This document shows, piece by piece, positions 957 through 16,450 of a DNA stretch of 64,000 bases. The translations under genes and the position numbers were made by a program. The number at the start of each line of letters is the position of its first letter. Position 1 is the first letter of the stretch. Origin of the DNA: Ustilago trichophora (taxonomy: Eukaryota; Basidiomycota; Ustilaginomycetes; Ustilaginales; Ustilaginaceae); assembly GCA_900323505.1 (NCBI GenBank), contig OOIN01000005.1, positions 1,673,575 through 1,737,574 on the forward strand. Reading direction: 5' to 3'. The notes beneath the pieces are model-generated. The model was given only the letters and a program-made list of their open reading frames with translations, was not told the DNA's origin and ran no database searches.

Positions 957-3446
957 TCATGAGGTCGTGGGAGCAGCTGCGGATCCGACCTTGATGCCGA
1001 GCTTGGCAAGCTGACCCGTCAGCACGTGTCGAGCAAAAGCGGACTGTACGACGTTGGTTCTGTCCAAGCAATCCAAGCACGACACCCTAAACACACCAGT
1101 CTGCCTGCTCAGTACTTCGACTCTGTCTCCGTTGCCTGTGTCATCCGTACGTTGGTGGTAGTATTCCATCTCGCCTAGCGTTTGTTCCATCTGACCAATC
1201 AGCTTAGCCACGTTTTCAAACTTCATACCAGAGCATTCTTTGTGGAAGTCGAAGTCAACGTAATGCAGCTTTGTCCGGTCCCACGTCTTTCCTGTCTCCT
1301 TGGATGGGTCCTCCGTTCGGAGATTCTCGACAGCCTCGCGGTAAGCCTTGGAGATGCACCCTTCCTTGCCGCCTTGTTCGGCGAGGTTGACGCAGGTGAT
1401 GGAACCATACCTGTCAACCAGAACGGAAAAGTGCTTGCGACACGCTTCGGTGTTCTCGGCATCGGTGCGTTCGAGCACAGGTGGAGGTTTGAGCGCAAAC
1501 GGACTCTGCGACCAGTACAGTGGGATGGATCCTCGGATCTGTACGAAGCACAAGGCGTCTCCCACCAAGCTGGGAGCAGATTTGGGCGAAGACAGGCTGC
1601 GAAGGACGTAGATGATCTGCTCGGTCTCGACAAAGTTGGCGACTCGACCGGCTTCGTTTATGCCTCGGCGCTGATATCGCAAGCCAGCTCGCTCTTTTGA
1701 TCGTCGTGAAATGACCATCATCTGACAGCGTAGCACTGCATTAGCATCGTCGGCTCCAGATGAAGCGCCGTCATCTTTGGTGACCTCATCGATGGGCTGT
1801 ATAGGCAAGTTGACAGTCTGCACATAGCCTTGCATGACGGGCAGAATGTAAGCGTGCAGGCCGGCGTGGATGAGATCCTTCGACATGTGCTCGTTGTGCC
1901 AGAAACGTCGATCGGCCCTCCTCCACAGCGGAAGATTCGGATAGGGCTCAGCAAGCAAAGGAAAGGCAGCCGGTCGTTGCGAGTCCGAGTCCGATACCTG
2001 TGAATTACGAACTTGGTGTGTAGACTGCGAACCAGGTCGCAAGCGAGGGCTTGAATCGGATTTTGGATTGCTTTCAAGCGCGCGTCTCTTGTTCTGGAGC
2101 GAGGTGGTAAGGTCAAAGTCGTGACTGTACCAGAACTCGCCGCGAGCCCAATACTTGGCCGTCTCCCTGACGGCTTTGTCTTCGAGCTCGGCCTGCTTGG
2201 CAGCATGCCATTGCTCCTCAGGCGTCATTGTGACAGCTACAGAGTCGGTTGCGGCCATGGAATTTTGGACCTCAACTGGTGAGCGATAAGGGCCCGGCGC
2301 GGGAAGTTCGACAGCATCTGTCGATGCTTCCGAGGCGTCGGCTATCTGTGACTGCGCAAGAGCATCCTCAGAGATGGTCTCGATGCGTCCATCAGAGACA
2401 GCTCTGGCAGCACGCGTCAACCACGGCCTGGATTTAGGCATGCGAATTGTATCAGCACGATGCGAAGTGGAGAGTGTAGAGAAGAATGGTTCCTTTGGGA
2501 TGGCAGCTGGCGTCTCGACGTCGTCGTAGTCAGACTCGGAAGAGTCACTTTCGCTTGAAGAGCTACTGTCAGAGGTTGGGTCTTGATCGATGGAAGATTC
2601 GGAAGGCTGTGGGTCGGAAGGTGTGCTGGAGGAGGCGCCTCCCTGCTTGGCCATCTGGGCACGGATGGCCTGTGACGCTTCCTCTTGGAGCAGCGGAATG
2701 GCGAGCACACCGGTACAGCAATAGATGGGGCGAGTGTCGTGGAAATAGTGTCCAATCAGCTTGGAGCTGGTAATGACAAAGAGGTAGCTGCTGCTGAAAA
2801 AGCGCGAAAGTCCGATGAGTCCGGAGGATTCGATGGATGGGTCGTCCGATGATGCGCTGTGGAGGATGGATTTCCAAGCAGAAGGTTGCAAAGGTGTAAT
2901 TTTTGCGTCTTTGCTCCAATCGATGAGGAAGCCGACATCAAGCGAAGTGATGGGAGGAAGTGCTCCAGTAGCATTGAGCGGAGCCGTCGAGGTACTCAAA
3001 GAGGAAGCATTGGAGGCTCCGATGGTTGCGACCTTGAAGCCGTCACCAGAGCCGAACGGACGCGAGGAAGAAGATGTGCTTGCTGCTGCTGTTGTGCTCG
3101 CCTTGACGTGCTGTGAGGCATGCGAGTGATGATGGTGGTGGTGGTGGTGGTGGCGGTGCTGATGTTGCAAATGGCTGGAGCTACAAGGGTACACGAGAAG
3201 GCCTTGTTCGGTTGGCAGGATGCCAATGCGGCGCTCCGGAAGTGGATGCGGGAAAGGTGGAACTGTCCAAGCTGCCATGGCAGAGCTTGAACCTCTTGAT
3301 GGCAGAAGCGGAACCGAAGACATGTTTGGGGAAGACGAGATGGACGTTGTTCTGCTTTTGGCCGATGATGTGGTAGAAGCTGCGTCGGTTGGCCTTGTCT
3401 TTTGCTGTTTGGAATTGCTCGACGAGGAGAAGATGGCTTTGAACAT
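957..3446 (-). CDS. Sac2/INPP5F-type phosphoinositide phosphatase, N-terminal half (split gene)
   Basis: This intronless ORF of 829 residues starts at the ATG at 3446. The first ~150 residues are Ser-rich and carry a poly-His run. Sac-domain signatures follow: a GLIGLSRFFSSSYLFVIT segment, FWYSHDFDLTTSLQ, WHNEHMSKDLIHAG, an RRGINEAGRVANFVETEQI block, IRGSIPLYWSQ, and the CX5RT catalytic loop CLDCLDRTNVVQ near the C-terminus. The protein stops ~25 residues after that loop, where intact family members continue for ~400 more. The missing part is encoded separately at 14853-16450 on the same strand. The family removes phosphate from inositol lipids on endosomal or Golgi membranes (human Sac2 is a PI4P phosphatase). 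The frame has no internal stop, so it looks maintained. No good splice donor is visible near its 3' end. Confidence 0.85.
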   Translation of the reverse strand: MFKAIFSSSSNSKQQKTRPTDAASTTSSAKSRTTSISSSPNMSSVPLLPSRGSSSAMAAWTVPPFPHPLPERRIGILPTEQGLLVYPCSSSHLQHQHRHHHHHHHHHSHASQHVKASTTAAASTSSSSRPFGSGDGFKVATIGASNASSLSTSTAPLNATGALPPITSLDVGFLIDWSKDAKITPLQPSAWKSILHSASSDDPSIESSGLIGLSRFFSSSYLFVITSSKLIGHYFHDTRPIYCCTGVLAIPLLQEEASQAIRAQMAKQGGASSSTPSDPQPSESSIDQDPTSDSSSSSESDSSESDYDDVETPAAIPKEPFFSTLSTSHRADTIRMPKSRPWLTRAARAVSDGRIETISEDALAQSQIADASEASTDAVELPAPGPYRSPVEVQNSMAATDSVAVTMTPEEQWHAAKQAELEDKAVRETAKYWARGEFWYSHDFDLTTSLQNKRRALESNPKSDSSPRLRPGSQSTHQVRNSQVSDSDSQRPAAFPLLAEPYPNLPLWRRADRRFWHNEHMSKDLIHAGLHAYILPVMQGYVQTVNLPIQPIDEVTKDDGASSGADDANAVLRCQMMVISRRSKERAGLRYQRRGINEAGRVANFVETEQIIYVLRSLSSPKSAPSLVGDALCFVQIRGSIPLYWSQSPFALKPPPVLERTDAENTEACRKHFSVLVDRYGSITCVNLAEQGGKEGCISKAYREAVENLRTEDPSKETGKTWDRTKLHYVDFDFHKECSGMKFENVAKLIGQMEQTLGEMEYYHQRTDDTGNGDRVEVLSRQTGVFRVSCLDCLDRTNVVQSAFARHVLTGQLAKLGIKVGSAAAPTTS
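3124..3170 (+). repeat. GGT/GTG microsatellite encoding poly-His in the phosphatase
   Basis: A run of TGG/GGT triplets on the + strand encodes about ten consecutive histidines (residues ~98-108) in the disordered N-terminal region of the phosphatase half. Such triplet tracts often vary in length between strains. Confidence 0.7.
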
Positions 3447-3687
3447 GGTGGCGGCAGATGAGAGTGCAGGTGTACGCTGAGAGGGCGTACAGCTTGCAAG
3501 CTTGCAAGTCAGTGAAGAGCCAGAGACGTCTTTCCGATGGGGAGAAGAGAAGAAGCTGAAGATAGAAGCAGGATGAGGAGAAGCTCGAGTGTCACGAAGC
3601 TGTGTGGTGTCTGAGGCTAGGGGCAGAGGACATGCAATCCGCTAATCCTCCCTTGACGTGCATGCATGTCATGTTGAAATAACAATA

Positions 3688-3714
3688 GGGGGTCTCACCG
3701 CGCGTTGGATTTTC
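3688..3714 (+). repeat. Left terminal inverted repeat of the Harbinger element
   Basis: These 27 bases begin with five G residues. The inverse copy is at 7590-7616 with 27/27 identity. Confidence 0.9.
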
Positions 3715-3925
3715 ATCCAGATGTGTTTTTGAAAACCTGGCTGGGCTGGGTCCATTGAGCGCCCCCATTATCGTTGCGTGATAAATTCCAAGTTTTTGAT
3801 GTTGTCTGTTAGACCTTCCTCCGACTCAGCCGTTGTGACCTGGCCTCCTCATCATACCAGTAGTCACTATACACAATTTGTCACATCTCTTGCACTACTA
3901 CCATGTTTTCTACATTGTATACGGC

Positions 3926-5524
3926 TCACTGGGCTCTAGAGGCTACATTGTTGGTGTTCTGAGTGCTTTGGCTACGTCCAGTTTGAGATCTTGAAGTGGC
4001 TGTGGACCTTGCCCGTGAGCCAGTCTGACGTTCCATCATGGCATTGTAAGCGGCAATGGTCCGCTCATACCTGCGAGATAGCACTGATGTATCCTCTGGT
4101 TCACGTCTGTGGTGGTTGAATAGAGCCCGTAGCATCTCCTCTCGCAGGTCTCTTGCCTGGTCAACCCTGAATCGAGTTCGCTGTGTGTCGCTCATCCCTT
4201 CGGTGGCAGCGGCCAGATCAGCTTCGTACTGAGCCTGATTGTCTCGCCGAGTTCTCCTGGCTGGCTCGGTGGCTTGCTCATACCTTTGCAGGTCGCTCAA
4301 CACTTCGTTTACGTTGCTTTCGGAATAGTCCTCAAGTAGGTAGTCTGCTACATCATCAGGCTTGTCGTACCGACTGGCAAAGGTGTGGGCAACTATGCAT
4401 GCTTGAATTGCCTTCGATGCCGTGCAGTGATCCTCGTCCCTGTACATGTTCCCTTGGTAGCCCTTCAAGAGCTGAAATCAATTCTTGAGATATGCAATGC
4501 CGTGTTCGGCTCGTACACGGATCCTTGACAGCCACCTGTTGAAGTAAGACAGGTCCCTGCTCTGGTCCGCCGCCTTGTTTGTGAAGGGACCGACTGTGAA
4601 GGGTGAGAATCCATATCCTCCGTCAACCCAGACAAACTCACCGTCATCCAGATGAAGCCGTGGTTTGGCAAGGATTTGACTTCCGGAGGTCCATACGTGC
4701 GAGTCTTGAGAAGTTCCAGGGTGACCAACAATGGACTCCACGATACAAAGGGAGTGGGGAAGCATGACCAAAGCAATGTTGCAACTGTACATATGCTTGT
4801 AACTGAAGTAGTCGACGTGATAGAGAGCCGGCTTCCATGCAAGAGGAATGTGCGTACCGTCGGCCACCAACCATCCGCGAGACCACTCAGGCACGTCTAC
4901 GTGATTTGAAACCCACCTGGCTGATCGTGACCGCTCGTCCTCAGTGGCAAATGTTAGCACCTCCGGTGTGATCTCGAGGAGGGCTTCAATGGTGCGTTGT
5001 GTCCAGTTGTTGACTGAGCCCTGGCTGCATCCGCAATGCAAAGCGATATCTCTAAACCCTGCACCATTCCCTGACCGCCCAAAGCGGTACAGCGCAACTG
5101 CGACTTGCTCTCGAACTTCAGATCTTTCCAGCTGTCCAGCGTTGAATGCCCGTGTCTGATGTAGGCGTGTTACTAGGTCTTCAAAGGCCGTCGGTGTCAT
5201 CCTAACGAGTCCTCGGAACAACTTGCGGTCGGTGTGTTGGTATTCGTCAAGCAGATCCACAAGATGATCCTGGCGGCGTCTCTTACGTCCTCGTGGTGCA
5301 GTGTAACGCTGGCTTGCAGCTTGCATATATGTATTGAGAAGCTGATGCATGATTGAGTCGTCCACATCATTGTCATCACCGTCGCTGAAAAGATCGTCTT
5401 GCCAGACCCAAGGATCCTCCACGCTGCCTGTGTCCTGCTGCTGCTCGATGTGGCTGGCAACAGCAAGTTCCAGCATTGACTCGATGCTGTTCAGTAACTC
5501 CACTCGTTTGCTGGTACGTACCAT
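3926..5524 (-). pseudogene. Harbinger transposase (DDE nuclease, HARBI1-like) with one internal TGA
   Basis: The frame opens at the ATG at 5524 and runs to the stop at 3926 with a single interruption, a TGA at 4478-4480. The 348 residues before it carry the DDE triad: D in VADGTHIPLAW, D in HPGTSQDSHVW, and E in RVRAEHGIAYLK. A helix-turn-helix-like segment lies upstream (FRDIALHCGCSQGSVNNW). After the TGA the same frame continues with LLKGYQGNMYRDEDHC, exactly where active relatives continue, and then a C-terminal region rich in Arg, Ser and Gln. A single C-to-T change at a CpG (CGA to TGA) would explain the stop. The domain call is firm. That the copy is dead is an inference, since readthrough cannot be excluded. 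Confidence 0.85.
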
Positions 5525-5620
5525 TACTGCAAGGCAGCTTCATGTTTGAAGCGGTTGGTGGTGGTGGTGGTAGTAAGGAAGAAACAAACATGTGCGCAAC
5601 AAAGGGGTTAATTTCTCCGC

Positions 5621-5672
5621 ACACCTCCACTTCACGCGTGTCAGTCACACCTCCACTTCACGCGTGTCAGTC
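5621..5672 (+). repeat. Two tandem 26-bp units inside the transposon
   Basis: The unit containing CCTCCACTTCACGCGTGTCA occurs twice head to tail (5621-5646 and 5647-5672). It lies in the spacer just upstream of the transposase gene (start at 5524). Each copy carries ACGCGT, so the pair may be a promoter or transposase-binding element. Confidence 0.65.
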
Positions 5673-5875
5673 AAGCTTGTATCAAAGGTCAAGGAGAAAC
5701 AATTCATTGAGTAGTAAGAACAATTGTGAAGAAAGATCATGCAGGGGTATTGTGACTGAGAGGCAGAAATACAAGGGTGAGACGGGGTACATGTACGGAA
5801 GCGGTACTGAGACGGAAGCAGAAATACAATGGCGTCAAGAGCCGGGAATGGGGACATGGAAACAGAAGCTGTGTT

Positions 5876-7331
5876 CTAGGCAGCAGGACGACCCAGGGAG
5901 AAGGCAGCACCGGTGGTGCTGTCATTGTTGTCGTTGAGGATGGGAAGCTGGAAACCTTTGCCGGTCACGACGAGGCGCATCATCTCGAGTGAGAAGTTGC
6001 GCTCAGCCTCACGGGATCTCTGGTCTCTTTCCTTTTCGGCTTCTCTGGCGCGCTCCTGGCTCTCCCTCTCCTCTCGTTGATGCTGGAGACGAAGCGCCTC
6101 ACGCTTGGTCCGTTCCTCTTCGATCCTGACCTTGGCCTGGAGAGCCGCGTTGTTGCTTGTGATGAATGCCTGAGACCAGGTCTCGCGAGCGCTGGATGTG
6201 TCCTTGCGGCCTCTTTTGCCAAACGAAGGCTGCATTTGAGGAGAGTCGTCCAGTCCGGCCGTAGTTGCACTGCGACGGCGAGGGGCAGCAGGAGTGGCAG
6301 GCGTGCTGTTACTGAAGTGAGATTCGGAGCTGGTGGAGTTGCTGGGTTCGAAGGAATTACCACGGAGAACCCTGTTGGTGAAAGGATCGTCCTGTGAAGC
6401 TTGCAGGACAGCGTCGAGAGGGGGCAGTCCTCTGCCAGATGCAGTCTGAGGGGAGTCATCGTCTTCAGTGAGTTCCATAGGCTTGTCAGCTTCCTCAACG
6501 CTGCTACTGTCATTGCAACGTGAAGCGCTGTCATCGTAGCCTGAGCTGGTCAAGAGAAGAGCAGGGCCGGCCTGTGTTCAATCGAGCATCATCTCATGCA
6601 TGCGCTCAAACCACGGATGCTGCGTTGCAAGGCCTGCACGCGAGAGATAGGTCTGGGAGGCAGGAGAGAGAAATGTAAGCATAACCCCAAGTCTAGAAAT
6701 TGACCAAGGTACTTACAGGGTCTTCAGGGTTCATGTCACGGAGAAGAGAGCCGGCACCGGTGAAGGACATCTTGGCCTTGATCTTTCGATACGAGTCGAT
6801 GAGGTTGCGGAACTTAGTCTTGACACGATCAGCCTGACGATCATCCTCTCCTGGAAAGACTTCACGGAAGACCTGCTTCCAGAGTGTGTTCTTCCTTGTC
6901 TTGACGGTCCAAGTGGCAGAACCCGGAGTGCGGCCTGGTACAAGCGCTCGCGCAAAAAGATCGTTCGAAAAGATGACCTCGAGAAGTCGGGCAGTGTCGG
7001 CGTCGGACCAGTGGTAGTACGACTTCTTCTTTGGGTCAGGAGTTAGGCGAGCAGTGTGATTGCGCTGAGCATCTGCCCCAGCTGCCGCTGGAGATGGAGA
7101 TGAGGCGGGTGATGACGGGGAATCCGGCCTGGAAGGAGATGCCAGAGGGGGGGTTTCGATGCTGAGTTGAGGGGAGGTTTCCAAATTGTGTCTAGGGGAT
7201 GTTTCGATGTTGTGTCGAGGGGGTGTTTCAATGTTGTGTGTATCGTGGCTGTGCTCTACTTCCTCAACGTCTAGAGGTGCTGAAGGTGCTGCAGGAAGAG
7301 ATGGAGCAGCGTCTGAAGAGACGGTGGCCAT
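5876..7331 (-). pseudogene. Harbinger-associated Myb/SANT-like DNA-binding protein, one internal TGA
   Basis: Exon 1 runs 7331-6717 and ends at a GTAAGT donor. Exon 2 runs 6652-5876 after a CCTCCCAG acceptor. The frame is continuous (615 + 777 nt) except for a TGA at 6578-6580. Residues ~90-205 form the Myb/SANT-like domain: a YYHWSDADTARLLEVIF helix, then LWKQVFREVFPG, then VKTKFRNLIDSYRKIKAKMSFTG. The HPWFERMHEMM motif just before the TGA is a family hallmark. The tail is charged, with a long Glu/Arg coiled-coil segment. In this superfamily the protein binds the element ends and brings the transposase into the nucleus. As in the transposase, CGA to TGA explains the stop. A second small intron removing it is a less likely alternative. 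Confidence 0.75.
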
Positions 7332-7589
7332 GGTGGAAGAGAGAAGGAGAGAAGGAGGGAGAGAGTATCGAAAAGAGTGTTGGTAGAGCTGAGAGTGTTG
7401 ACGGTGAGAAGGAGAGCAGGATGCGGAAGCGGAAGCTGTACTTCACGAATGCTGAGTTTTTGAAAATTGCGCGTCTTACCCGCAATTTTCAAATGTCCCG
7501 GGTTTTTTGCACTTTGGCAGGGCTTATATAAGCAATTTGCTATGCAAAAACTCAAAACCGATCCGTGATATGAGTTTACACAAATTTTC

Positions 7590-7616
7590 GAAAATCCAAC
7601 GCGCGGTGAGACCCCC
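7590..7616 (-). repeat. Right terminal inverted repeat of the Harbinger element
   Basis: This is the exact inverse of 3688-3714 and ends in five C residues followed by TAATA. Confidence 0.9.
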
Positions 7617-7937
7617 TAATACAAAGTCGCAAGTGTTGGTGTTCGAACTTGGATTCATTTATTTTTTGGACGAAATCGAGCGGACATGTCCAACACAATA
7701 GAAGTGGAGGCGAAAGAAGACACTTGTTGGCATCTTGAGCTTAACATCTTCTAATTTCCATCCAGCGCGACCGGGCGAAGTCCGATGCTCCACTTCCGAA
7801 AGCTTTGCTCTCGAGCCACCTCAATATGCTGTACTGTATCTTGGACGTTCGACTTGTTCGGCGAAACTTGTCTCTCTACACGATCTTTGTCCAGATCAAT
7901 CCTATCGAAACACGCTTCCACCAATATACGAGCAGCC
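7617..7937. other. Promoter/5' region of the SnoaL-like gene
   Basis: About 320 bases lie between the transposon end and the next start codon. No ORF or repeat of note is seen. Confidence 0.4.
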
Positions 7938-8555
7938 ATGGCTACTGAACACTACGAGGACAACGAGCTTCCACCAGCCGGAAACCCTGCCGATGCATCC
8001 AACAAGGACGTCCCTCCCGCCATTGCCCAGTTTGTCGAGAGCTTCTACAAGATTTCGGACACACCCGAAGTTCACGAGCAGTATGCCGACGAATACTTCA
8101 TCCACGACCAAGACAGATTGAGTTTCCAAATTGGGCCTATGCAACCCACCAACAAACGCGAGGGAATCGTTGCGTGGAGGCAAAAGGGCTGGGAAGGCGT
8201 CACCCGACGCAAGCACGTTGTCAACGGCGTCTTTATCAGCCCAAAGTGGGAGAACGAGATCATGCTCGACGGCACCGTCGAGATGGACAAGAATGGTTCG
8301 ACTCTTCGTTTCAACTGGGCTGGAAGAATGGTGTTTGACCAGAAGAGCCTCGACGAGCGCTCTCCTAAAATCGAGAGCTACAAGGTCTGGCTGGTAAGTG
8401 GCCGTGCAACACGATGAGGACTCGCAACTCGCTCTTTCTCAGACTTTGACTTTGCCCACGGATGTTGATACTGATACTGACCTCGCTTCTACCGTTGGCT
8501 GGGATGCACCGTTGCCTCGCATATATATGCTGGCAATTTACAGAGCCAGGATTGA
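7938..8555 (+). CDS. SnoaL/NTF2-like small protein
   Basis: Exon 1 runs from the ATG at 7938 to 8393 and ends at a clean GTAAGT donor. The likely second exon is 8544-8555, after an ATTTACAG acceptor, giving 155 residues. A later AG at 8546 would give a slightly longer tail, so the 3' end is uncertain. The body (IAQFVESFYKISDTPEVHEQYADEYF, then GIVAWRQKGWEGVTRRKHVVNGVF) matches the cone-shaped SnoaL/NTF2 fold: an N-terminal helix-rich half with an aromatic pocket and a C-terminal sheet (MLDGTVEMDKNGSTLRFNWAGRMVF). Related basidiomycete proteins have no known reaction. I would call it a conserved, probably soluble, ligand-binding or lyase-like protein. Confidence 0.6.
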
Positions 8556-9728
8556 GATCCAGCCAAGGTCAAACTCGGACGCAACTGGTAACACGATGAT
8601 TTACCAACACAAGCAAGGTGGTACGATGGAATTGTCGAGGCCATTGTAACCTCAATGCAAGCCAGTTGGCTGCGCTTCGCCTTTGTGAAATGTATCGAGT
8701 CTAGTTGAAGTTTGAGTTCCTGGTCACAAGTCAAGGTTTCGCTACGCTACCATTCTCTGTAGCGACACGACTGAGTCCATTTTTGTTTCAAGAGTTCTCC
8801 GTGCACTCTATCCACTATCTCGAGAGGCCAAGCGAACTTGTGTCTGTCGCTGGTCGAGGAAAGCCGAAGGAAGATTGCCAATGTGTAAAAATGGCGAATA
8901 AGGCTCAGAGCTTGGCAGGGCCCTGACCGACAACTCCACAAGGTACGAGGCCCCAGTGCTTGGGATTGTCTTGCCGGGGTGGTTCCTTGAGCGAGTGATT
9001 CTGCATAGACGAAGCTCTACTATGACCGAGCAGGTCGCCGATGGATCCATCAAACTAGGCAAGCAACCGGATAACGCGCCTCTGCCTCTGATAACCGTCC
9101 ACTCGACGGCAACTCTCCGCGGTCGGGCGCCGTCCGAAGCATTTTTCAAAAAAGATGGCGAGCTGCTGTCAAAAATCTCCACTTTTGCGGGGTGAAGCTG
9201 CATCAAAGGATTGCAGATACAGTACAGAACTGGCACTGTGCACAGAAGCAGATTTGGTTCGGCTATAGAAACCATCAGAGTCCGACAAACCCTCTGTACG
9301 GTCAGTGAACAAGGTAGCCAAGCGAAACAAAGCTTCCAACACGCTCAGGCTCAGGCTCAGGCTAGGCCACCCGTTGCATCTGCCACAGATGCTGAATCTG
9401 AGAATGACATTGTGCCTCTCATACACTGCACCTGCAGCCCCGGCAAGAATCCTCAATACGGCTCACGGACCACTCTCCGAGCTATTCAGTGGGGCTTCAA
9501 GAGGCTCGAGAGTGGCATCCATCATTTCCTAGCCCCGGACTACACGCGCCCCACCGGACCCTCTCCGAGAGCTGGCAACCACCACAGTAGACGCAATGAG
9601 AAGCCATCTGATCCTTACACATACATATAAGCTAGCTAGGTCGTCCTGACCGCTCTTCTTCACAACTCCGCTCATTCGACATTGTTCTTTCTTCCAGCCT
9701 CCTGACAGTACACACACGAACAGCAAAC
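8556..9728. other. 1.2-kb intergenic region with a short CAGGCT repeat
   Basis: ORFs here are short, on both strands, and lack domain character. A hexamer CAGGCT tract is present near 9346-9364. A TATA-like ATATAAG occurs at 9625-9630, ~100 bases before the next start codon. Confidence 0.45.
9624..9631 (+). promoter_or_regulatory. TATA-like box of the decarboxylase gene
   Basis: CATATAAG lies ~100 bases upstream of the ATG at 9729, with a pyrimidine-rich leader between them. Confidence 0.4.
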
Positions 9729-10837
<1,109 letters not shown>

Positions 10838-10929
10838 AAGACTTGGCTGCACTTGTTGGGTTCCGTTCAATAAAGATTAGCATTGCTCCATAATAATAAT
10901 AATCATCACTGAGTTGTACCTGTGCTGTT

Positions 10930-11403
10930 TTACGAGCCGTTGAGCATCTTTTCCATGCAGATGGAGGAATCGACTCCAGCGTAATATCCAAAGTTGGGAA
11001 TGATTCGGTATCCATTACGTGTGTAGAAGCGCTGTGCTTCTACAAGCTTGTCGCCAGTCTCGAGAAGAAGTCGATGGATGCCGAGGGCGAGCGATTTTTG
11101 CTCTAGAAAGACGAGCACTGCGTTTGCAGCGCCCTTACCTCGAGCTTGCTTGGTGACAAACATCCTTTTGAGTTCGGCAGAATTTTCATCAAGCCTTCGA
11201 AGCCCTCCACAGCCTACTGGTTTATCGTTCTGATAGGCTACACAGAAGCACGTCATGTCGTCGGCTGTCGGGGGCGTGCCTGGCTCCGAGTCAACACGTT
11301 CATACAGAACGGCGATGTCAATGCGCTGCTGCTGTCGCAGATGACAGGCATCTGGGTGATCCCAGCTCACCTCTTCGACTCTCAACATGTCTGTCGTCAA
11401 CAT
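10930..11403 (-). CDS. GNAT-family N-acetyltransferase
   Basis: The ORF of 157 residues starts at the ATG at 11403. Motif A of the GNAT fold, which binds acetyl-CoA pyrophosphate, is QARGKGAANAVLVFLEQ, preceded by the beta-4 strand ELKRMFV. Motif B follows as LLLETGDKLVEAQRFYTRNGY, the usual tyrosine-containing end of the fold. The substrate is unknown; the size suits a small-molecule acetyltransferase. An upstream micro-exon is possible: ATGGAGG at 11474-11480, followed by GTAAGT and an acceptor GACGACAG, would give an alternative start. The gene converges with the decarboxylase, with only ~90 bases between their stops. Confidence 0.75.
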   Translation of the reverse strand: MLTTDMLRVEEVSWDHPDACHLRQQQRIDIAVLYERVDSEPGTPPTADDMTCFCVAYQNDKPVGCGGLRRLDENSAELKRMFVTKQARGKGAANAVLVFLEQKSLALGIHRLLLETGDKLVEAQRFYTRNGYRIIPNFGYYAGVDSSICMEKMLNGS

Positions 11404-11480
11404 CCGCCGGAGAGAAGGGTGAGAGTCAGGACTCGCAAAAGGCTCAAATTTGTCAAGTAACGAAACTTACCCTCCATATC

Positions 11481-12114
11481 AAATGCGTATCGCGGGGCTT
11501 CCGATTCTTCCAGCTCTACGGAATTGAGAGAGGATGATGGCTGTCTTGATACGTCTACAAGATCTTAAACACGAGTTTGAAGGAAGACACAGTCGCTACC
11601 GGATCTCAAGAATATATGACTCGGCGCTTTGAACGGCATTCAACAGCTCGGTCAATCTGCGTCGAAATTGGGTAGAAGCCGGTACAGAATTGCATTGCAC
11701 TGCGCACGCGCTTATTATACTTGCGAAGGTCTCTTCCAATAGGTGAATTGCGATAAATATCAGAGCGGAATGCGGAATCGGATTGCGGATTGCGGAGACA
11801 GCCAACGTAGGGGTCGCGATAGGCATTTTAGCCGACAAAGGGCAATCTGGCTCACTCACTTGGCTCACTCACTTGAGTCAGGAAGAACCTCTTTCAAGAC
11901 AGAGAGTGGCCAGACGCGCACACAAAATTTCGGTTTGTGTTAGTTTCGTGATTTGGGCGATTTTCGCCCATCACGCTGCATTCGCCACAGCCGCACTGCT
12001 GCCAAAAGATTGTCTCGCAGATCGACTGGCCTCATCTCTGTGACAGCCCTTTTCCTTTCTGTTTTGTCGCCATCATCCCAACTCATTCTAATACCTTCAA
12101 GGCATTCGGGCAGC
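11481..12114. other. Divergent promoter region (GNAT / MATE)
   Basis: About 630 bases lie between two divergent genes. I see no further gene. A duplicated GGCTCACTCACTT motif occurs at ~11848-11874. Confidence 0.4.
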
Positions 12115-14517
12115 ATGAGCTTTACACCGCGCTACGGCTCGTCCGTAACGAGGGACTACACCTTGCTTCAAGGTCATCCTAGCTCGTATCATCACTTCGG
12201 TGCCCTCGGCTCAAGCCAGCAACGCGGCGCCAACCAATCAACAGCACCAGACGATGACGCTCACAGCATCCATGGCGATCACGATCACGATCACGATCAC
12301 GATCACAATCACAATCACAATCTAGATGACCACGACCACGACCACGACGCCGTAGCCTCAGCATCCTCCATCCATCTCGACGATTCCACCGATAACGGTC
12401 TCAGCAACATTTCGCTTCCTGCAAATCATCTAGCTGTCCCTAGCTCCCCTGCCTTTGGCCGCGGCAATCGTCTCGCAACCGCTCCCGTCGCATCGCCCCG
12501 CAATCGCCGACCCAGCGTCAATGCCTACTCACAAGTGGCGGGCATTCCCTCCGAGTATCTGCTCGGAGGCTCCGCCATTCCTCCAACGCATCATCCCTCT
12601 TCCGCTTCCAACATCACCCTTGGTGCACCCCTCGCACCATCGTCCTCTGTTCCAAAGCAAGCCAGAACATCTCTCGAAGATGGCGATCAACGTACAAGTG
12701 AAGAGCTTGACGCAACCGAATCAACTTCACTCCTTCACCGTCGAGCACCACAACACCCAGATGCTCACCAACACCATGGCTCAAACGCAGTGCCATCCTC
12801 GTACGGTGCCGTGCGACGCTCCTCCATCGACGGTGCCAGCATCATCAGTGGCGGCCCAGGTGTCAGCGGCTGGGCAGCTGCAAACATGATGCGTGAAGCT
12901 CCTCTCCCAGGTGTTGAGCAGATCGAGTCGATTGCTCGCGAGTCGCACGACCACATCGCTTGGAGGGAGGCCAGAGTCTTGATTGGTTACACTGTCCCCA
13001 TCTTTGCCACCCATCTCCTAGAACTCTCACTCTCGGTAGCCTCTGTCTTCTCTCTCGGCCATCTCGGTACCGTCGAGCTTGCTGCCGCCTCCCTCTCCAG
13101 CATGACCGCCAACGTCTCTGGCTTCAGTGTTCTATCTGGTTTCATCTCGGCTCTCGACACTCTTCTCCCATCCGCATATACCCAACAACCCAAGTCAGTC
13201 GGACTGTGGACACAGCGAATGGGCGTCATTCTCATGGGTATTCTCCCCCTCATCCTCGCCGTTTGGCTCAATGCAGAAGCGATCTTGGTCAGCATCGGTC
13301 AGGATCCCGAGGTCGCCTATCTCGCAGGTCGCTACCTTACCGTACTTTCCATCGGTTTGCCCGGGTACGCTCTCTTCGAGGTCTGCCGACGTTACTTGCA
13401 GGCGCAAGGTCTTATGCACGCACCCACCATCGTCCTCATCTTTGTCTCTCCACTCAACGCCATTGCCAACTATCTGCTTGTTTGGGGGCCTGACTCCATC
13501 AGGCTTGGTTTCATCGGAGCCCCACTCGCTTCAGCGCTCTCCATGTGGCTCATGGCCATTCTCTGCTTTTTCCAGTGCGTCCTCGGTCCTCGCGATGCCT
13601 GGGATGGCTTCACCACCGCAGCCTTCAAGTGGGATGGTGTCAGGCCCGTCCTCTACCTTGGTTTTGCCGGCATGATCAGTCTCGCCGCTGAATGGTGGGC
13701 TTGGGAGATTGTAGGACTCGTCACCAGTCAGCTCGGTGTTGTCGCGCTCGCTGCCCAATCGGTGCTCCTCGTCAGCTCCTCAGTCACATACCAGCTGCCC
13801 TTTGGTGCTTCGGTTGCTACTGCTGTCCGCGTCGGCAATCTTCTCGGCGCCAATCGACCCGACGAAGCCAAGATCTCGAGTCGAGTTGCTCTCATTCTCT
13901 CGCTTGCCATGGGTGGTCTCAACTCTGCCCTCTTCCTTATTTTCCGCAAGCAGTGGGGCTGGCTCTTCAGCTCCGACATCGAGGTTATCAAGCTCGTCGA
14001 GTACATCTTGCCCCTGCTTGCTTTCTTCCAAGTTGCCGACGGTATCTGTGGCATTGCTGGCGGTGTCCTCCGTGGTACCGGAAGGCAGGCGGCCGGTGCT
14101 GGCATCAACATGGTTTCCTACTACATTATCGGTATCCCCATCGGCCTGATCCTCACTTTTACTCGCATCAACCTCGGACTCGCCGGCCTCTGGTGGGGTC
14201 TGACCATCGCGCTACTGTTCGGCTCGGCCGGTATGATCTGGATCATCGGCATCACAGACTGGGATTGGGAGGTCAAGAAGGTACAGCTGCGCATGGCTGT
14301 CGACGATCCCTCGGATCCTTCTCACCAAGCTGCTGCAACTGCACACGGCAACGCAAAGCCCGATGTCGAGGTCGCATCTGCCCCTCGCCTGGCTCAGACC
14401 TCGTCCGCTGTCGACGCCATCAACAGCCGCGATCCGGCCCTCAGCCCCCTTGGCCTGCGTCCATCTTCGCTGGCTGGGTCCGTGATCGAGGAGGAGGACG
14501 ATCAAGTGTCCATCTGA
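12115..14517 (+). CDS. MATE-family multidrug/toxin efflux transporter
   Basis: The start is placed at the ATG at 12115 (MSFTPRYGSS), because upstream in-frame codons resemble leader sequence. The product is 800 residues. The first ~290 are hydrophilic and Ser/His-rich, with a striking run of alternating Asp-His and Asn-His pairs at ~56-80. From ~300 to ~715 there are twelve hydrophobic segments in two six-helix halves, typical of eukaryotic MATE carriers: IGYTVPIFATHLLELSLSVA opens helix 1, and VALAAQSVLLVSSSVTYQLP, FGASVATAVRVGNLLGA and ADGICGIAGGVLRGTGRQ belong to the second half. MATE proteins export organic cations or toxins by proton or sodium antiport, usually at the plasma or vacuole membrane. 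The long N-terminus is unusual for the core family but common in fungi. Substrate unknown. Confidence 0.9.
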   Translation: MSFTPRYGSSVTRDYTLLQGHPSSYHHFGALGSSQQRGANQSTAPDDDAHSIHGDHDHDHDHDHNHNHNLDDHDHDHDAVASASSIHLDDSTDNGLSNISLPANHLAVPSSPAFGRGNRLATAPVASPRNRRPSVNAYSQVAGIPSEYLLGGSAIPPTHHPSSASNITLGAPLAPSSSVPKQARTSLEDGDQRTSEELDATESTSLLHRRAPQHPDAHQHHGSNAVPSSYGAVRRSSIDGASIISGGPGVSGWAAANMMREAPLPGVEQIESIARESHDHIAWREARVLIGYTVPIFATHLLELSLSVASVFSLGHLGTVELAAASLSSMTANVSGFSVLSGFISALDTLLPSAYTQQPKSVGLWTQRMGVILMGILPLILAVWLNAEAILVSIGQDPEVAYLAGRYLTVLSIGLPGYALFEVCRRYLQAQGLMHAPTIVLIFVSPLNAIANYLLVWGPDSIRLGFIGAPLASALSMWLMAILCFFQCVLGPRDAWDGFTTAAFKWDGVRPVLYLGFAGMISLAAEWWAWEIVGLVTSQLGVVALAAQSVLLVSSSVTYQLPFGASVATAVRVGNLLGANRPDEAKISSRVALILSLAMGGLNSALFLIFRKQWGWLFSSDIEVIKLVEYILPLLAFFQVADGICGIAGGVLRGTGRQAAGAGINMVSYYIIGIPIGLILTFTRINLGLAGLWWGLTIALLFGSAGMIWIIGITDWDWEVKKVQLRMAVDDPSDPSHQAAATAHGNAKPDVEVASAPRLAQTSSAVDAINSRDPALSPLGLRPSSLAGSVIEEEDDQVSI
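12277..12350 (+). repeat. GATCAC hexamer tract encoding Asp-His/Asn-His pairs
   Basis: Repeats of (G/C)ATCAC with AATCAC variants lie inside the transporter gene and encode alternating D-H and N-H residues. The period keeps the reading frame. Confidence 0.8.
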
Positions 14518-14852
14518 TTTCCTCAGAGCCGCCAACATCAAATTATTCCCCATGCTCCATACAGCCGCACCTTGCAATAATCCATATACAAACCCGTGTC
14601 CATATCAGTCTCTTGCAACACATGAAGTCAGAAGTTTGCAGCCTGTGGCACGAAGTCCTTGCAGAACAAGACGGATGCTTGGGATGGCGATCCTGACTCG
14701 ACTGTGCGGTGTCGAAAGAACGAAGAAGATCAATCAGTGCAATTGCAGAGGTAAGGAAATCCGGCATCGTCGTGCTCAGAGACTAAATTGAGGGGTATAT
14801 TAGCAAGCTAAGCGCATAAAGGGCAACAATGGACAAATGCAAAGCACGGAAT
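14518..14852. other. Convergent 3' intergenic region
   Basis: About 335 bases lie between the stops of the MATE gene and the second phosphatase half. No gene is seen. Confidence 0.4.
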
Positions 14853-16450
14853 CTAGAGCCAAAGACGACGCTTCAAGCCTTCGATCAGAGGGCCAAACAA
14901 CGGCATCATGGCCTTTGCTTCGTCGAGACTGTGTTGGCAAGACAGCAGATTGGAGAGGAAGAGTCGACAAAAGAGATCAGTATTGTCGCGCGGCGAATTC
15001 AAAGTACATACCAATGCTGGAACACGTACCTCTGAATTGTCTTGTGCGTGATAAAAGGCTTGTCCACGTCCTCATCATCAGGATCGAATGCTCCCGCATC
15101 AATACAGGATTCGCGCAACAGCTCGACGATCATCGCTACTTTTCGTTTCGACGAGATACATCCTTCCTCGTCCTCGTCATCTTCAGCATCGTATCCATGC
15201 ATACTTCCACCTGCGGCTTCATTGCCTCGCTGAGACTTTAATGGGTTGCCTTTCACAGTATGATGCAGGTGACGCGAGCGAAGTGTCGCATTGGCGTTGG
15301 AAAGATTCTTGGGATCGTCGATCTCGTCCGAGATAGCACGGAAGGCAAAAATACGCTGAGCAGATTCAGTTGCATGGGCAGAGGAAGCCGTTTCGGCAGC
15401 AGCAGTGGTGGTGGTGATGTTCTTGATCGAGGCGGTGGTGTTGCTCCGCGAGATCGAGTTGAGATACGTCACGACGAATCCCCAGTTGTCTTCTGGATGC
15501 GAAGATTCGTTTGGCGAGGTCACATAGAGGCCTAAACGTGAGCGTGATGTACACCGGGTAGATCGATCCGGGAGAGAGCGAGTGTCAGTTCTCATTCTTT
15601 ACTTTACCGAGCAGCGCGATGGGAGGAGGATTCAAGACATACCTTCTTGAAGACCGACGATATCGCCAACGAGAACTTTGGTGAAGTGGTTGAGCTTTTC
15701 GCTACCAAAGTCATAGCTGCAGACATACAGTGCCTTGGCCGTCAAGAGCGCTACTTTTTCCTCGAGCTTCAACGCTTGGACCGTGTTGGCTTGCAAAGGT
15801 GAGCAAAGTGTCCAGCCGCCGATCAGGTCCTCAGACTCGGGAACAGCCTCACGACGACAGCTTTCGATCGCAGAAGCGCGGACACGCGCCAGACGAATGG
15901 ACTCGGATGGATCACGGCTGTTGAGATCGTCGTAGTAGCGCTCTAGACCGTGCAGACCGATCGAGCCGTACGTGAAGTCGAGCACGGTCTGTCGGAAGAA
16001 GTCGGTCACGGCGCCTTGCACCATCCTGTAGACCGAGTTGGTCGCATCGTCTGTTGAGCGTCCAGTGAGGCAGGCGCAATACATAATTTGTCAGTGAGGC
16101 TGCGCTGAAGCGGTTGTCGACACCAGAAAGATAGTGATATACGTACTGATCATACCGAGGAAGCTCCTCTTTCCTGTTCTCGTAAAATCAACCTTGAGCG
16201 CATCCGTGTTGGAATAGCAGTGCGAGATAGCGTTGGCATTGTTGGCCCAGATGTCATTGAACGCATCGTCGAGTGCCTTTTCCGTCAGCACAAACCGAGC
16301 TTTCGGGATGTTGCTGTCTTTGGAGAGAGGATTGCTGCTGCATGTCGAGCCTACTTCCGTCCTCGAAGGTTGTGCAGCGCTTGGGGGAGCAACAGCGGTG
16401 GCAATCTTCTCCTGCGTTGTTGCTGGTGGCGACGAATCTGCAGCTGACAT
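14853..16450 (-). CDS. Sac2/INPP5F-type phosphoinositide phosphatase, C-terminal half (split gene)
   Basis: Four exons fit one frame: 16450-16147, 16050-15643, 15531-15030 and 14928-14853 (1,290 nt, 429 residues). Donors are GTACGT, GTATGT and GTACGT; acceptors are CAACAG, GTTTAG and CAACACAG. After ~60 low-complexity residues the protein begins exactly where the half at 957-3446 stops: FNDIWANNANAISHCYSNTDALKVDFTRTGKRSFLGMI is the C-terminal part of the Sac catalytic domain. DFFRQTVLDF and the hSac2-like homology region (FTKVLVGDIVGLQEG) follow, then an acidic tail. It has no CX5R loop, so alone it cannot be catalytic. The precise introns argue against decay. The two proteins may associate, or this half may act as a membrane or partner-binding module. 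Confidence 0.82.

Follow-up and report, generated by a model that had tools for sequence, protein, structure and literature searches.

A Sac2-type phosphoinositide phosphatase divided between two genes in Ustilago trichophora and related smuts, probably by an ancient fission within the catalytic domain

How does a single catalytic domain come to be encoded by two genes that stand in swapped order, and what becomes of the enzyme? Gene fission is a known process, and fixed fissions are usually regarded as cuts between domains. The question is raised here by a stretch of 64,000 nucleotides from the smut fungus Ustilago trichophora (GenBank assembly GCA_900323505.1, contig OOIN01000005.1, positions 1,673,575 to 1,737,574), referred to as the window, in which an earlier note made from the letters alone had described a Sac2-type phosphoinositide phosphatase divided into an N half and a C half. 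The reading that we favor, at a probability of about 0.78, is an ancient, fixed fission in the DNA of this phosphatase gene, with two polypeptides that reassemble non-covalently. We class fission within a single catalytic domain as the new element. No prior report of a split Sac2 was found in the openly licensed literature, as covered by titles and abstract openings.

Both halves lie on the minus strand of the contig carrying the window (C5). The C half is the upstream one, separated from the N half by 11.4 kb that includes other genes, and the order is the same on the homeologous contig (C3); the swapped order on one strand with about 11 kb of intervening genes had been read correctly. The two genes comprise the following features.

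957-3446, minus strand: N-half gene, single exon, 829 aa, encoding the Sac N-terminal domain and the catalytic core through the P-loop and the next helix.
1056-1079, minus strand: catalytic loop codons CLDCLDRT (CX5RT), residues 790-797, read from the sequence; CLDCLDRTN in 20/20 N-half proteins examined.
14853-16450, minus strand: C-half gene, four exons (16450-16147, 16050-15643, 15531-15030, and 14928-14853), 429 aa.
16292-16450, minus strand: C-half leader of low complexity with its own ATG; 46% mean pairwise identity over 13 rows.
16147-16291, minus strand: Sac tail, exon 1 part (DFTRTGKR region), which completes the Sac fold.
16051-16146, minus strand: C-half intron 1, after GMI, from the exon model.
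15971-16050, minus strand: Sac tail, exon 2 part, from the exon model and alignments.
15659-15901, minus strand: hSac2 domain (PH-like fold), Pfam hSac2, E value 7.6e-22.

The N-half product matches Pfam Syja_N (SacI homology domain; E value, 3.9e-78) in an uninterrupted open frame and contains the Sac core with its CX5R(T/S) loop. That the gene ends shortly after this loop holds, given the 829-aa frame with CLDCLDRTN near its end; the distance of about 25 residues first given was a slight underestimate, the end lying 40 residues from the catalytic cysteine, that residue included. The half covers about residues 2-432 of yeast Sac1. Its sequence alignment to the yeast protein (3lwt) reaches residue 417, and the structure predicted for the N half alone is confident and Sac1-like as far as 431-432.

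The C-half product runs from a leader of about 52 residues through the post-P-loop end of the Sac domain and the hSac2 domain to a conserved C-terminus. The exon model and Pfam bear out the four exons, the unbroken frame, and the rest of the catalytic domain joined to an hSac2 region. The equivalent of Sac1 436-503, the Sac tail, is encoded by the C-half gene on both homeologs and not on the N-half chain. The U. loliicola C half (P0026) aligns to Sac1 436-503 and has a weak match to the human SAC2 hSac2 structure (4xuu; E value, 0.0014). The hSac2 domain is confined to the C-half genes and missing from the N-half chain. The halves are complementary, with no overlap seen between their coverage of the Sac domain, and the cut lies in a variable loop between the post-P-loop helix and the last helical segment of that domain.

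Contig C3 matches C5 in genes, strand, swapped order, and intron positions. Its N half (2165460-2167964, 834 aa) and C half (from 2177100 down, 429 aa) are 90% and 91% identical to their C5 counterparts and lie about 7.5 kb apart. The two contigs are collinear over about 20 kb, with DNA 77-91% identical by block, save one 3.9-kb insert on C5, which is a transposon. Frames and splice sites are intact on both homeologs, as expected from the earlier claim that neither half carries a stop or frameshift.

An intact copy elsewhere was sought by profile search in six frames, exon by exon, and no intact Sac2 gene was found in the 38.8-Mb genome (45 contigs) with the hSac2 and Syja_N profiles. The hSac2 domain (PF12456) occurs solely at the two C-half loci. 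Syja_N occurs at eight places: the N halves account for two, and the remaining six represent three genes, each in two copies. As a control, Sac genes on C1 and C2, which we take to be Sac1-like, match the N half and then the Sac tail within one open frame; the search therefore detects unsplit Sac genes where present. The genes searched occur in two diverged copies across the assembly. In the available text of PMC8951962, a U. trichophora strain already published has a genome of 20.7 Mb. Candidate readings of the doubled gene content are a hybrid, a highly diverged diploid or dikaryon, and a mixed culture.

Three protein searches, which scored the 7,999 or 8,000 candidates with the most shared words, were used to follow both states in other fungi. 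The N-half search gave 24 proteins, 3 of them distant and 21 smut-type N halves (463-838 aa), all of which have PF02383 and lack PF12456. Those with a named source include U. tritici, U. loliicola, Sporisorium graminicola, S. reilianum, Moesziomyces, Melanopsichium, Pseudozyma hubeiensis, Kalmanozyma, and Testicularia. N halves stop 33-47 residues from the catalytic cysteine (inclusive) in 20/20 examined, mostly with an Ala/Ser-rich tail; P0010, a Melanopsichium N half whose model ends before the P-loop, was left out of this count and of the trees. The C-half search gave 40 proteins, including separate C halves from U. loliicola, U. tritici, S. reilianum, Melanopsichium, Kalmanozyma, Testicularia, P. 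flocculosa, and Thecaphora frezii. Those that reach the start have a leader, mostly with a KIATAVAP-like motif, followed by a segment like LTEKALDDAFND.

The fused form is found in Violaceomyces, Tilletiaria, and Agaricomycetes. Violaceomyces palustris P0047 carries both domains on one protein with the junction loop unbroken. Among the best 120 of 2,595 matches to the Violaceomyces protein, both domains are present in 109; the other 11 comprise 4 smut N halves and 7 pieces that cross the junction. These seven (P0083-P0088 and P0164, without PF12456) were considered as further splits and rejected; 7/7 read past the junction and so resemble exon fragments from fused genes. Thirty-nine proteins were taken as fused, 24 of which are used in the trees. 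Both anchors, the catalytic cysteine and FND, were found in 33; the span between them is 39-45 residues in 32 and 84 in P0080. In smuts this stretch is interrupted, the N half running into its own tail and stop and the C half starting anew with an ATG and leader.

Four annotations tag both halves, and the tags are consecutive in three: U. tritici (NDA13_002528 [C] and NDA13_002529 [N]), U. loliicola (NDA16_001531 [N] and NDA16_001532 [C]), and a chicory-labelled assembly (L1887_56517 [C] and L1887_56518 [N]). Three further N/C pairs show contig sizes equal to the base (6,633, 8,738, and 23,766 bp). Going by the consecutive tags and matching contig sizes, the halves look like near neighbors in several other smuts. 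A search for smut DNA among viral and genome contigs, made with P0003 to compare gene order, gave no match. Against close linkage everywhere, the Testicularia tags are apart (BCV70DRAFT_179306 and 201926), both halves showing a 678,276-bp contig. Two proteins filed under chicory (Cichorium endivia), P0017 and P0048, resemble smut halves, P0017 aligning closely with the Moesziomyces N half; smut contamination of the plant assembly is the probable explanation.

The 19 split rows of the N-half tree group as a single clade (support, 100), the sister of which is the fused Violaceomyces protein (support, 96); P0017 was counted in the survey of C-termini and not in this tree. The C-half tree includes 11 C halves from the C-half search and the two of this genome. 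P0048 (the partner of P0017), P0028, and P0033, all of which reach the leader, were left out, as were incomplete pieces. The C halves and Violaceomyces group together with support 100. By these trees, both halves share ancestry with fused Sac2 proteins, and the split state was inherited by a clade with the fused state outside it, less firmly so for the C half. A single origin of the fission is favored but not proven by the C-half tree. Compared side by side, the leaders of most other smut C halves begin in much the same way and carry a KIATAVAP-like motif, and this likeness favors one fission. C-half residues 68-88 (exon 1) read WANNANAISHCYSNTDALKV, which is common to Violaceomyces and the 13 C halves; at this position the 23 other fused rows shown have WA[ND]NGD and, in most cases, YAG[TS]xALKG. 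This change in the conserved Sac tail seems to predate the fission.

Whether the halves are still needed, and for what, is addressed by selection and by structure models. Between homeologs, the ratio of nonsynonymous to synonymous divergence (dN/dS) is 0.19 for the N half and 0.14 for the C half, with dS about 0.3, and both halves are under purifying selection. Decay of both halves after loss of the Sac2 gene, whose role other Sac-domain genes (the six further Syja_N places) might cover, is scarcely credible in view of these values, the intact frames and splice sites on both homeologs, and relatives in other Ustilaginaceae that are full-length and mostly 67-79% identical. Conservation within the C half is highest in the Sac tail, with 94% mean pairwise identity versus 80% for hSac2 over the 13 C halves in the tree and dN/dS of 0.023 (1 nonsynonymous and 11 synonymous differences) versus 0.077. 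Modeled alone, the tail is poor (block predicted local distance difference test score, 48-72) beside a confident hSac2 domain. High conservation together with poor prediction in isolation is the pattern expected if this segment depends on docking to a partner. The halves could instead have taken up separate functions after the fission, the N half working alone, or serving as a dead scaffold, with the C half as an independent PH-like adaptor comparable to the vertebrate protein Mover/TPRG1L. The good models of hSac2 alone and of the N half alone, together with an hSac2 domain on its own chain in Mover (available text of PMC6856015), are consistent with this. We consider it unlikely, since an independent adaptor has no obvious need of a Sac tail, yet the tail is better conserved and more constrained than hSac2, and the CX5RT loop is kept in all 20 N halves.

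Two further explanations were weighed. A normal fused gene might have been cut and shuffled in assembly or annotation; the halves do lie on one strand of one contig, draft assemblies do show such cuts, and neighboring locus tags in some smuts, taken alone, could mean one gene annotated as two. Because the same split and order stand on two homeologous contigs, however, the error would need to have occurred twice, and, one transposon apart, C3 and C5 match along about 20 kb. Separate halves also come from several assemblies and annotators, and the 20 N halves all end within the same narrow range from the cysteine. Such an artefact, which the earlier note had kept in view, is thus highly improbable. 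The alternative of one polypeptide made by trans-splicing (or back-splicing) of two transcripts draws on an acceptor-like CACTGCAG that precedes the C-half ATG on both homeologs, where the earlier note had pointed one out. Neither C5 nor C3 has a consensus donor (GTRNGT) 100 nt or less from the N-half stop, in a scan confined to consensus donors, and the statement that no good donor ends the first half stands to that extent. The sole GTRNGT in the 400 nt scanned lies 140 (C5) or 149 nt (C3) upstream of that stop, before the P-loop codons. Across smuts, the C halves moreover share their own ATG and a leader motif, and each N half ends in a short tail of its own, the length of which varies. Joining of transcripts, already rated the lesser option, is accordingly very unlikely. 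A split intein was also considered and set aside, although no profile search was made: there seems to be too little room for one in the N tail, which extends about 11 residues beyond the conserved helix, and in the leader, about 52 residues long.

The fission of one gene into two that cooperate is therefore the reading retained, and two separately translated halves are supported by C3, the separate half-proteins of other smuts, purifying selection, and the lack of an intact copy in the genome search. In the earlier proposal that the halves assemble as two polypeptides, the two polypeptides stand, and physical association is made likely by conservation and modeling. Several points weigh on the other side. 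The case for reassembly is drawn from sequence comparison and models, and the low model confidence of the Sac tail may partly stem from a shallow alignment (42 rows). Among the N-half and C-half matches listed there is no row named U. maydis, and N halves of P. flocculosa and T. frezii are not among the N-half matches listed. The 13 split rows form one clade of the C-half tree at a support of only 71, and trees with Violaceomyces inside the split rows are not rejected (approximately unbiased test, p-AU of 0.08 and 0.21). The same tree splits its outgroup and puts the window C half beside Melanopsichium (support, 81), not beside C3.

The break would have been made in DNA rather than through a retrocopy, because the C half keeps its introns, the first seemingly shared with fused relatives. 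Fused relatives P0083-P0086 cease matching at the position of intron 1 (GMM then S), as if their frames ran into an intron there. Retroposition is unlikely for a C half with three introns, the first of them where, in a comparison of proteins only, the P0083-P0086 frames leave the family sequence. How the halves came to stand in C-then-N order can be suggested more weakly. A tandem duplication of the entire gene, after which the first copy lost its N half and the second its C half, would yield this order and the near adjacency seen elsewhere, with other genes coming between the halves later. It is gene order that points to this route, and no relics of lost half-copies turned up in genome searches with the N and C halves. 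The monkey-king genes of Drosophila illustrate gene fission by duplication and complementary loss; that process would yield adjacent complementary half-genes, C then N, as here, but the relics of lost halves that it might leave were not found in these searches.

In the present-day cell, two transcripts would give two separately translated proteins that associate non-covalently. The Sac tail of the C half would dock on the N half and complete the active fold in trans, and the C half would supply the hSac2 (PH-like) domain for dimerization and probably for membrane targeting. Activity would depend on both chains; as the break runs through the catalytic domain, the two pieces most likely need each other, and most likely must find each other in the cell for the enzyme to work. 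By analogy with the fused family, the likely activity is that of a phosphatidylinositol 4-phosphate phosphatase. More tentatively, smuts may run an obligate two-subunit phosphatase in which the P-loop chain becomes active only once the chain bearing the Sac tail and hSac2 has docked, gating lipid turnover. If so, the cell could gate turnover by making or placing the two chains separately.

The nearest parallel is offered by the basidiomycete dynein heavy chain. The available text of PMC4540427 describes it as two genes, dyn1/dyn2 in Ustilago maydis and dhc1/dhc2 in Schizophyllum commune, with the break inside AAA4 (the fourth AAA module) in smuts, a split point conserved per group, and no reversion observed; knockout of either gene is lethal in U. 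maydis. The precedent cited in the earlier note is thereby confirmed, and in the present genome, too, the dynein ends lie on different contigs, with AAA_6 on C15/C16 and Dynein_C on C28/C34, two copies each. In both cases one ancestral basidiomycete protein has become two genes, with the break inside a folded module. Unlike the motor dynein, the enzyme described here is a phosphatase, its catalytic loop and the end of the same catalytic domain are on different chains, and its half-genes lie close together on one strand in swapped order. If the reading holds, smuts would, with split dynein, stand out as a lineage in which fissions within folded domains tend to become fixed.

Sac2/INPP5F-type phosphatases share with the smut halves the CX5RT Sac domain, the Sac tail, and hSac2 and are related to them by tree, but are fused into one polypeptide where smuts have two. 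Sac2/INPP5F is called an inositol 4-phosphatase in the available text of PMC11576722. For human Sac2, that of PMC6856015 reports that hSac2 deletion prevents dimerization with full-length Sac2; it also describes Mover/TPRG1L, in which, as in the smut C half, the chain carries hSac2 but lacks the Sac catalytic core. In the smut C half the Sac tail is retained, at 94% identity. We know of no Sac tail in Mover, and in this the two probably differ.

The cut lies inside the catalytic domain, just past the active-site helix, and is kept in all smuts where halves were found. Such a natural split enzyme with a fused outgroup bears on how a severed domain holds together and whether splitting adds control, in an enzyme family that handles the phosphoinositides steering membrane traffic and polar growth. 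The split may also serve as a shared derived gene-structure character in smut phylogeny.

Other features of the locus are given below; the four genes between the halves are collinear with C3.

38-601: GMC oxidoreductase gene, C-terminal part, near the window edge.
3687-7617, minus strand: PIF/Harbinger-type DNA transposon with 29-bp perfect inverted repeats, an AAT duplication, and an empty site on C3.
7785-8417, plus strand: open reading frame without a name, between the halves.
9729-10502, plus strand: amidohydrolase (Pfam), between the halves.
10930-11403, minus strand: GNAT acetyltransferase (Pfam), between the halves.
11953-14517, plus strand: MATE transporter (Pfam), between the halves.

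The transposon lies between the halves on C5 only, about 240 bp upstream of the N-half ATG, and its open reading frames encode DDE_Tnp_4 (4478-5524) and Myb/SANT. It was considered as the cause of the split and rejected, since the site is empty on C3, which is split identically without the element. It may influence expression of the C5 N half, on that homeolog only. The transposase has at least two further copies at 99% (C30 and C5:501354) and at least 16 matches at 51-57%, and the element looks young.

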